Of a DNA stretch of 64,000 bases, positions 12,333-55,150 are shown one piece after another. Each line of letters opens with the position of its first letter. Position 1 is the first letter of the stretch. The DNA lies in assembly GCF_013283195.1 (NCBI RefSeq), contig NZ_JABEKT010000001.1, positions 904,795-968,794 on the forward strand, read 5' to 3'. This stretch comes from Ensifer adhaerens. Its GTDB lineage: Bacteria > Pseudomonadota > Alphaproteobacteria > Rhizobiales > Rhizobiaceae. Under the pieces are notes generated by a model. That model searched no databases and was not told the DNA's origin. It was given only the letters and a program-made list of their open reading frames with translations. Made by a program: the position numbers and the translations under genes.

Positions 12333-12568
12333 TAGATAGCAGCAAGTTGCGCGCTTGCAAAGATGCGGATTTTCGTGGCGGCGATGGTGGTCGGGCAGTT
12401 TTCCCCGACGTTGCCGGGGTCGCCCGCGCGTCGGACTTGCGGATTTTGAAAGCAGCGGTTACGCAATTGTTAACAAAACCAACGGCGTGCATCCGGAATT
12501 AACCGATAAGAGCTTGCGGATGACAAAGAAGGCGCCGATCGAAATGACGAGCGCCGGCGGGGCTACGG

Positions 12569-12672
12569 CATAATCCTTTAAATCGGATCCGATTTAAGGC
12601 TAGGATTATGCAGCAGATTTAAAGCGTTACAGCGTCCTTTGCGCGCCAGATTTGACGCGCGGTGTTGTAAGG
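12569..12672 (+). repeat. Dispersed rhizobial palindrome-plus-hairpin repeat, copy A
   Basis: Begins with the perfect 20-bp palindrome TTAAATCGGATCCGATTTAA (12578-12597), followed by ATTATGCAGCAGATTTAAAG and then an imperfect hairpin (TTACAGCG..GCGCG / CGCGC..GTTGTAA). It ends 26 bases before the GTG start of the next gene and points in the same direction. Related copies lie at 53911-54010 and, inverted, 55016-55116. Confidence 0.85.
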
Positions 12673-29768: not shown

Positions 29769-29809
29769 AAAAAAACCGGCCGCGTGAAGGGCCGGTTTGA
29801 TACCCGGCC
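29769..29809 (-). terminator. Riboswitch expression platform: terminator/antiterminator segments
   Basis: Three complementary six-base segments occur in order of transcription: GGCCGG (29804-29809), CCGGCC (29790-29795) and GGCCGG (29776-29781), followed by seven T. Segments 2 and 3 make a rho-independent terminator; segments 1 and 2 make the competing stem. They lie directly between the aptamer and metZ. Confidence 0.85.
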
Positions 29810-29811
29810 TT

Positions 29812-29864
29812 TTTAGCTACTTGTTTAACGTGGCTGCAAGCCGACCGGCCAAATCACCACGGGA
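29812..29864 (-). ncRNA. SAM-II riboswitch aptamer upstream of metZ
   Basis: Read on the minus strand, the leader contains CCCGTGGTGATTTG, then CGGCTTGCAGCCACG and TTAAACAAGTAGCTAAAA. This matches the SAM-II (metA element) pseudoknot core known from alphaproteobacterial metA and metZ leaders. High SAM should favour the ligand-bound fold and lower metZ expression. The element is followed by a terminator whose first segment begins three bases after the aptamer. Confidence 0.93.
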
Positions 29865-29944
29865 TAAAGCTCCAATACTGCTTGGGTGCGCTTGCGTCAA
29901 TTCCTGGAGTTTGGTTTTGTCTCGCAACTGAAAAGAGGATCGAA

Positions 29945-53846: not shown

Positions 53847-53910
53847 TCCCTGAGGTCGCCGGCCGCCGTTCCCTTTTGTGCGATGGACGGCTAAAGAAGG
53901 CCTGCTGCAT

Positions 53911-54010
53911 CTTTCCTTAAGTCGGAATCGATTTAAGGAGAAAATCATGCCGCAGGTCTAGAGTGCTACAGCGGCCTTGGTGCGTCATATTTGAAGCGCG
54001 GCGTTGTAGG
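53911..54010 (+). repeat. Dispersed palindrome-plus-hairpin repeat, copy B
   Basis: CCTTAAGTCGG/AATCGATTTAAGG (imperfect palindrome, 53915-53938), then AAAATCATGCCGCAGGTCTA and GTGCTACAGCGGCC ... GCGCGGCGTTGTAGGG. Same order of parts as copy A. It ends 20 bases before the start of the small Lrp-like gene, in the same orientation. Confidence 0.85.
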
Positions 54011-54030: not shown

Positions 54031-54267
54031 ATGAAACCGATTTTCGTCCAGTTGCAGTGCGCTCCCGGCAAGACCTACGAGGTTGCCGACGAGATCTACC
54101 GCAAGGAGATCGTTTCGGAAATGTATTCGACAAGCGGCGACTACGACCTCTTGCTCAAGATCTACATCGAAGAAGGCCAGGATATCGGCAAGTTCATCAA
54201 CGACAACATCGCCACGGTTCCGGGAATCTCGCGGTCGCTGACGACGCTGACCTTCAACGCATTCTGA
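54031..54267 (+). CDS. Stand-alone Lrp/AsnC ligand-binding (RAM) domain protein
   Basis: 78 residues from ATG 54031, with CAGAGGAAATTCC upstream. The whole protein is one RAM/AsnC effector domain: FVQLQCAPGKTYEVADEIYRKEIVSEMYSTSGDYDLLLKIYIEEGQDIGKFINDNIATVPGISRSLTTLTF in outline. There is no DNA-binding domain. Such small proteins form oligomers that bind amino acids or related effectors and may act with full-length Lrp proteins. Converges on pdeM with seven bases between stops. Confidence 0.88.
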   Translation: MKPIFVQLQCAPGKTYEVADEIYRKEIVSEMYSTSGDYDLLLKIYIEEGQDIGKFINDNIATVPGISRSLTTLTFNAF

Positions 54268-55015: not shown

Positions 55016-55116
55016 CCTTCCAGCGCCGCGCGTCGGATAGGACGCGCAAGGGACGCTGCAACATTTTGGATCTGCTGCCTACTTCCCTAGATCGGATCGG
55101 ATTCAAGGAACTATGC
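55016..55116 (-). repeat. Dispersed palindrome-plus-hairpin repeat, copy C (inverted)
   Basis: On the minus strand it reads TTCCTTGAATCCGATCCGAT, then GGCAGCAGATCCAAAATG and TTGCAGCGTCCCTTGCGCGT ... GACGCGCGGCGCTGGAAGG. Same layout as copies A and B. It ends 16 bases before the pdeM start, in pdeM orientation, and lies between the helicase stop and pdeM. Confidence 0.85.
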
Positions 55117-55150
55117 AGTCGTGTGTTCACGAGAACACGGGGGGCGCATC

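Follow-up and report, generated by a model that had tools for sequence, protein, structure and literature searches.

The 64-kb window, by which we mean the whole stretch of Ensifer adhaerens DNA that was analysed, contains three dispersed copies of a repeat, identified below as RIME1, one of them in inverted orientation (Table 1). Such a repeat, consisting of a palindrome, a linker and a GC-rich hairpin, had been predicted from the letters of the sequence, and the places of the copies, the order of their parts and their shared sequence were all borne out, with the complete plan present in each copy; only the predicted extents were slightly narrow, as a covariance model of ten own-genome copies (R1) gave a somewhat wider element. 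A search of both strands of the 64 kb with the palindrome pattern, allowing up to six substitutions, returned these three copies only. The element measures about 103-105 bases (104-105 model bases plus flank) and has two stems. Its first hairpin exceeds the 20-base palindrome owing to an outer stem, GCATAATT / AATTATGC, which extends the inner palindrome TTAAATCGGATCCGATTTAA and carries a bulge on the 3' side. The element ends, CTGCATAATTCC and CAGCGCCGCGC, have only C[TA]GC (TAC[TA]GC) in common and no further inverted repeat. When five copies were folded singly as RNA and compared with 200 dinucleotide shuffles each, four beat every shuffle, and for the third window copy 2 of 200 shuffles folded as well or better (z of the five copies -3.2 to -7.7). 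By eye, all three window copies seem to directly precede a start codon of the same orientation; our script called the gene for two of them, and genome-wide no such rule was found. The window also harbours a SAM_alpha riboswitch at 29792-29870 on the reverse strand (85.7 bits).

Table 1. Positions of the RIME1 copies and of the parts of copy 1 within the 64-kb window.
Feature	Position	Strand	Remarks
RIME1 copy 1	12565-12669	+	covariance model R1, 111.3 bits; flanks C-TA-[element]-TA-A
Copy 1, first (left) hairpin	12568-12611	+	GCATAATCC...GGATTATGC around TTAAATCGGATCCGATTTAA
Copy 1, linker	12612-12626	+	AGCAGATTTAAAGCG
Copy 1, second (right) hairpin, GC-rich	12627-12670	+	TTACAGCG...CGGTGTTGTAA; 12670 is a flank base
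RIME1 copy 2	53904-54008	+	103.4 bits; ATG at 54031 downstream on the same strand
RIME1 copy 3	55019-55119	-	92.5 bits; 4-base bulge missing from the first hairpin; decayed ends

By location, size and architecture, the three repeats are Rhizobium-specific intergenic mosaic element 1 (RIME1). This element was reportedly first described by Osteras, Stanley and Finan in 1995 and is said to have been known from rhizobia since, as an element of 108 bases (105-108) that contains two large palindromes and lies between chvI and chvG in R. meliloti and NGR234; it reportedly occurs in several copies and is confined to the Rhizobiaceae. The identification follows from the presence of a copy in the S. meliloti chvI-chvG gap, the reported place of first description: in strain Ak57, R1 matches L217:3897-4000 with 96.3 bits, and chvI and chvG are annotated on either side. 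Just upstream of this copy lies a second palindromic repeat, which we take to be, probably, RIME2. The record in question (L217, CP090106.1 48989-55708) is titled S. meliloti plasmid pSymB, yet with 3.72 Mb, chvI/chvG and leuA it is probably the chromosome. Comparison with known rhizobial repeat families, which the original prediction had proposed, led to RIME1, with the same gap, size, pair of palindromes and spread in the Rhizobiaceae and no difference found, the two being compared by description and not letter for letter. Among 80 chvI loci of named genomes, R1 gave nine matches in eight loci at E ≤ 0.1; matches directly downstream of chvI occurred in Rhizobium sp. CCGE 510 (57.4 bits), Aureimonas altamirensis (53 bits) and, weakly, two Mesorhizobium (28.0 and 26.7 bits). 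In Sinorhizobium sp. 8-89 and K101, R1 matched nothing between chvI and chvG. As a family RIME1 is not new, and what we add to it is its mobility, its target, its bursts and apparent stop-codon insertions; as only open-licence papers were searched, we do not claim that the literature never treats RIME1 as mobile.

At Rfam gathering scores, no family was assigned to the window repeats. At a loose limit, the alignment of RF02600 (Brucella sRNA CI27, BASRCI27) extends over the entire element, and the first hairpin is built in the same way; a copy of genome G011, a member of the genus, scored 33.9 bits (E 4e-6), the window 25.2 bits and a third match 22.0 bits, all below the gathering score of 59.8. 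This alignment suggests kinship with Brucella repeats. Bru-RS elements are listed in PMC2267715 as intergenic sequences of 103-105 bases with a conserved stem-loop, and Bru-RS1 and Bru-RS2 are, as described there, like RIME1 in length, intergenic siting and stem-loop, a likeness by description and not by sequence; the link between Bru-RS and CI27 is our inference.

With copy 1 as query, BLASTN returned 24 matches in the own genome at E ≤ 10, the self-match and some reverse-strand self-matches counted, the best non-self match having an E of 9.8e-24. R1 returned 130 matches at E ≤ 10 in this genome of 7.07 Mb, a number in which a single copy was sometimes also read from the reverse strand; stricter filters and E ≤ 0.01 left 79. 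Across 41 genomes 21 matched R1, comprising all 16 of the genus (own included) with 44 to at least 96 matches each, three of nine from other genera of the same family, and two of 16 from other families with one weak match apiece. In a wider draw, in which at most 26 candidates were scored per genome, 60 of the 151 genomes of the (GTDB) family matched, in 48 of 109 genera, and a plasmid collection yielded 270 matching records, including Rhizobium (173), Sinorhizobium (78) and Agrobacterium (14). According to a passage of PMC2573895, rhizobial genomes contain dozens of such intergenic repeats, of unknown function. In genome G011, and likewise in G137 (4.1 Mb), which belongs to another genus, all 150 scored candidates matched, giving at least 150 matches and well over a hundred copies in each, with 94.5 bits as the lowest score in G011; there, 258 left and 318 right end patterns were found as compared to 0 and 7 for reversed-pattern controls. 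Both genomes carry near-identical copies at unrelated sites, which look like recent RIME1 bursts in two genera.

RIME1 is mobile, as sites that hold a copy in some genomes are empty in others. A site in an ABC-permease/histidine-kinase gap (site 1) is filled in R. ruizarguesonis and R. beringeri and empty in the other four records read, the empty sequence being CCCA/AGG (slash, insertion point) and the filled ones CCCA-[element]-TA-AGG in R. beringeri and CCTA-[element]-TA-AGG in R. ruizarguesonis. Beside a DUF1810 gene (site 2), two records are empty with GAGC-TA-GC and two R. leguminosarum plasmids are filled, with the element in opposite orientations at the same TA (L222:515-618, reverse; L223:501-605, forward), meaning that either this TA received two insertions or the element was inverted in situ; in both filled copies the element's left dinucleotide is CA and the right one TA. 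At chvI-chvG (site 3), the empty GCTAGCGC of K101 stands against CTA-[element]-TA-GCGC in S. meliloti, as read by eye where the alignment did not resolve, and in a fourth pair of filled and empty sites the sequences were too diverged to be interpreted. The two empty sequences of sites 2 and 3 are CTAG and fit a TA duplication; a simple TA duplication does not predict the CA at sites 1 and 2. The filled/empty polymorphism already contradicts the view that RIME1 was dispersed long ago by recombination or gene conversion and no longer moves, a view with which the mostly diverged own-genome copies would agree; clean empty sites in close relatives and the near-identical copies that G011 and G137 carry at unrelated sites likewise speak against it, and we regard it as extremely improbable.

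Flanks were read from young copies in the two burst genomes. Among 71 distinct young copies of G011, 65 have a left-hand and 69 a right-hand TA, with Y preceding on the left in 67 and R following on the right in 69; the 32 young copies of G137 have TA on the left in 28 and on the right in 32, with Y in 32 and R in 26, and in none of these 32 was a direct repeat longer than TA found. The common pattern is Y-TA-[element]-TA-R, flanks other than TA being commoner on the left (10/103) than on the right (2/103; Fisher p 0.033). ISY100 made a normal TA duplication in 34 of 39 products (PMC2170065), and IS711, which is associated with Bru-RS repeats, appears to duplicate the TA of YTAR (PMC2266754), insertion habits that the RIME1 flanks resemble.

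Taken as a whole, the explanation that we consider best, and likely, is that RIME1, with its roughly 103 bases and a hairpin at each end, is a non-autonomous mobile element, the double-stranded DNA of which would be moved in trans by a candidate TA-target transposase. This enzyme would prefer Y-TA-R sites and leave TA on either side, as IS630/Tc1 elements and IS711 do, and diverged copies such as those in the window would mostly decay in place. The alternative is a single-strand HUH mechanism like that of IS200/IS605 or REP/RAYT, in which the end hairpins would be recognised, the left YTA would be the target and the right TA would belong to the element, so that no true duplication would arise. 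Such a mechanism would fit a hairpin at both ends without inverted terminal repeats, the more variable left flank, young stems far less variable than loops, and the conversion of an empty CA into CA...TA at site 1; site 2 leans the same way, and the CA left flanks of both filled copies at site 2 lower our confidence in the double-strand reading and raise it in the single-strand one. The two empty CTAG sites, which fit a TA duplication, stand against a single-strand route, as does the lack of PF01797 (Y1, the RAYT/IS200-type transposase) in all 16 genomes of the genus, G011 included, a family that was detected in five of 14 control genomes. IS200/IS605-type (HUH) passengers are expected to be biased in orientation relative to replication, and no such bias was observed for RIME1 in G137 (55:61), G011 (37:25) or the own genome, G000 (24:18). 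For this count the leading strand was taken from twenty 20-kb samples per genome and the copies from sampled contigs (82 of 150 in G011, 121 of 150 in G137 and 57 on contig C1 of G000), 40 of the 260 copies used having unclear skew (5 in G137, 20 in G011 and 15 in G000). The absence of PF01797 together with that of a replication-strand bias favours a double-strand TA-target transposase acting in trans, and we hold the single-strand mechanism to be unlikely.

None of the three transposase families searched (PF01797, PF13358 and PF13340) yielded a member with RIME1-like ends. Ten PF13358 loci, nine in G011, G013 and G000 and one in G137, were inspected for an IS630 parent, several being fragments or cut by contig ends, and none had RIME1 ends; in G013, three IS630 copies occupy CTAG sites, yet the only end that can be read before the contig stops, GTGTCCCGTCAC, is unlike RIME1. 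Similarly, six DUF4096 (PF13340) loci in G000, G011 and G013 lacked RIME1 ends, and the TA-flanked ends of the DUF4096 element L296 of G011, GGGTCAGGAC, are unlike those of RIME1. A larger element, suggested by pairs of left ends about 2.4 kb apart on two G011 contigs, was dismissed when reading of the sequence led to unrelated insertions. Among the G011 loci sampled, 83 of 90 left ends have a right end, and the sequence around the seven orphan left ends revealed no larger common element. In one further G011 copy (L288, G011:C6:162485, forward), RIME1 is interrupted between GCGTTA and GGTACATTC near a contig end, perhaps by a repeat-targeting insertion sequence.

TA-target miniature elements normally carry terminal inverted repeats. 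RIME1, unlike these, has none that link its two ends, which argues against an IS630/IS711-type MITE, and no parent element was found for it among the transposase loci inspected. RUP and Correia elements, as listed in PMC2229807, are short and have TA at their termini, as RIME1 does. REP/REPIN sequences with RAYT are small intergenic palindromes of high copy number, as is RIME1, which differs in having two unlike hairpins in fixed order and in the lack of a Y1 transposase in the 16 genomes of its genus. By definition REP/REPIN sequences bear a one-sided GTAG tag, and such a tag is not evident in RIME1.

The complementary arm changes noted in the three window copies had been taken as a hint of selection for RNA or DNA structure. 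A covariation test on whole-genome alignments, as had been proposed, demonstrated that changes on both sides of a pair exceed those in shuffles. In the own genome (54 matches, 51 of them distinct), 22 of the 29 pairs were double-changed as compared to 13.5 in shuffles, with 88.1% of cells paired (shuffled, 81.2%) and 103 double-changed cells (shuffled, 34); among 41 matches (40 distinct) from other genomes and records, the numbers were 21 of 29 pairs against 7.6, 96.1% against 85.7%, and 87 cells against 12.5. Both alignments were fitted to the model, and as the copies were mostly picked by model score and model-aligned, intact stems are favoured. Complementary changes are thus real genome-wide, and the right hairpins of different genera are distinguished by compensated pairs; the example originally cited, TTACAG/TTGTAA versus GCTACAG/GTTGTAG, depends on a base that lies immediately beyond the segment inserted. 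This pair shows no coupling in the young copies of G011 (T-A 30, T-G 32, C-A 4, C-G 1, T-T 2, G-G 1); outside these copies, a C is matched by a G in 10 of 11 cases in the own genome and in all 12 from other genomes.

The G011 set has 19 pairs with double changes, 26 of its 30 double-changed cells stemming from 12 lower-scoring copies and only four from 65 distinct young copies. For the 75 young copies with the highest scores, a choice biased to intact stems, differences affect 0.8% of stem positions and 7.0% of the others, gaps included. Among own-genome copies, the 26 most diverged of those tested differ at 23% of stem positions and 38% of the remainder, with 112 of 720 pair cells broken; diverged own-genome copies keep pairs in 84% of cells, as compared to 75% expected from independent arms. 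At site A12, where the reference strain was compared with six further records, two had lost the first hairpin (both picked for shorter matches), and WSM1325 carries compensated changes. The simplest reading is that structure is strongly constrained as long as the lineage is mobile and that copies afterwards decay, for the most part neutrally. Structural constraint during the mobile phase would fit better than selection after insertion, which may nonetheless contribute, given the biased sampling.

It might be argued instead that selection for a host function such as mRNA stability, termination or an sRNA conserves the copies as structured RNAs or regulatory hairpins. The covariation would fit this, as would the pairs retained in diverged copies, the sub-threshold whole-element matches to RF02600 and a passage on meliloti in PMC2873474; in addition, own-genome copies often lie between co-directional genes (34/46 against 122/221 background gaps, p 0.021). 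However, orientation relative to genes is not consistent, diverged copies decay, the first hairpin is gone in two of the six further records at one site, and it is the youngest copies that show the strongest stem constraint. A constraint on mobility would fit the stem conservation better than a host RNA function, which we consider quite improbable.

Genes were called with a simple codon-usage script and counts of gene context are therefore rough; duplicates, copies with less than 700 bases of flank and copies without a gene call on both sides were left out. Copies avoid the interior of genes, overlapping them in 0 of 50 cases in G000, 0 of 69 in G011 and 1 of 29 in G137 (1/148), as compared to 29%, 26% and 18%, respectively, of YTAR sites within genes. 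In G011, six of 59 copies terminate the right-hand gene exactly 23 bases inside the element, the predicted proteins ending in YSAARQI (four), YSAARQT (one) and YSTARQI (one). The codon before insertion, as deduced from the left flank, would have been TAG in four and TAT in one; in the remaining one the left flank is TG, which makes the codon uncertain. At least four of the six look like insertions into a stop codon, in which the right end of the element would provide an in-frame stop. Stop codons are not preferred, as 10.3% of sampled G011 YTAR sites are stop codons; no case was entered from the left end, and none was found in G000 or G137. Gaps between converging genes are strongly enriched for copies in G011 (30/59 against 42/226 gaps; this replaces 27/60 obtained with window-trained codon usage), an enrichment absent in G137 (5/25) and G000 (5/46). 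In one G011 copy (L136, G011:C1:216256, forward) the second RIME1 hairpin is replaced by a GC-rich hairpin and a T-run, like an intrinsic terminator, and on the right flanks of L095 and L097 RIME1 directly adjoins a common motif, GTTTCCGGTT..., possibly a second repeat family. A linker mini-ORF, AAGGA...ATG CAG CAR NTT TAA, was considered and dropped, the stop at codon 5 of this four-codon frame being kept mainly in young copies (61/71 in G011 and 31/32 in G137, as compared to 10/50 own-genome and 9/40 other copies); AAGGA precedes the frame in 63 of 69 cases in G011 and, by the same test, in 0 of 32 in G137.

More tentatively, and with rather less confidence than we have in the TA-target reading, it might be speculated that mobile two-hairpin elements with a TA target form a wider class in the alphaproteobacteria, with RIME1, recently active and lacking inverted terminal repeats, as its best-preserved branch and Brucella CI27/Bru-RS as diverged relatives. 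The transposase would then read two different end hairpins, and the in-frame stop of the right end would soften insertion into stop codons.

The filled and empty sites, the exact flanks and the genomes with fresh copies make the mobility of RIME1 directly testable and narrow the search for its mobiliser. Selection on mobility would explain the conservation of the stems without a host function, and the apparent insertion into stop codons, with the short tail that it adds, may represent a simple route by which repeats alter proteins.
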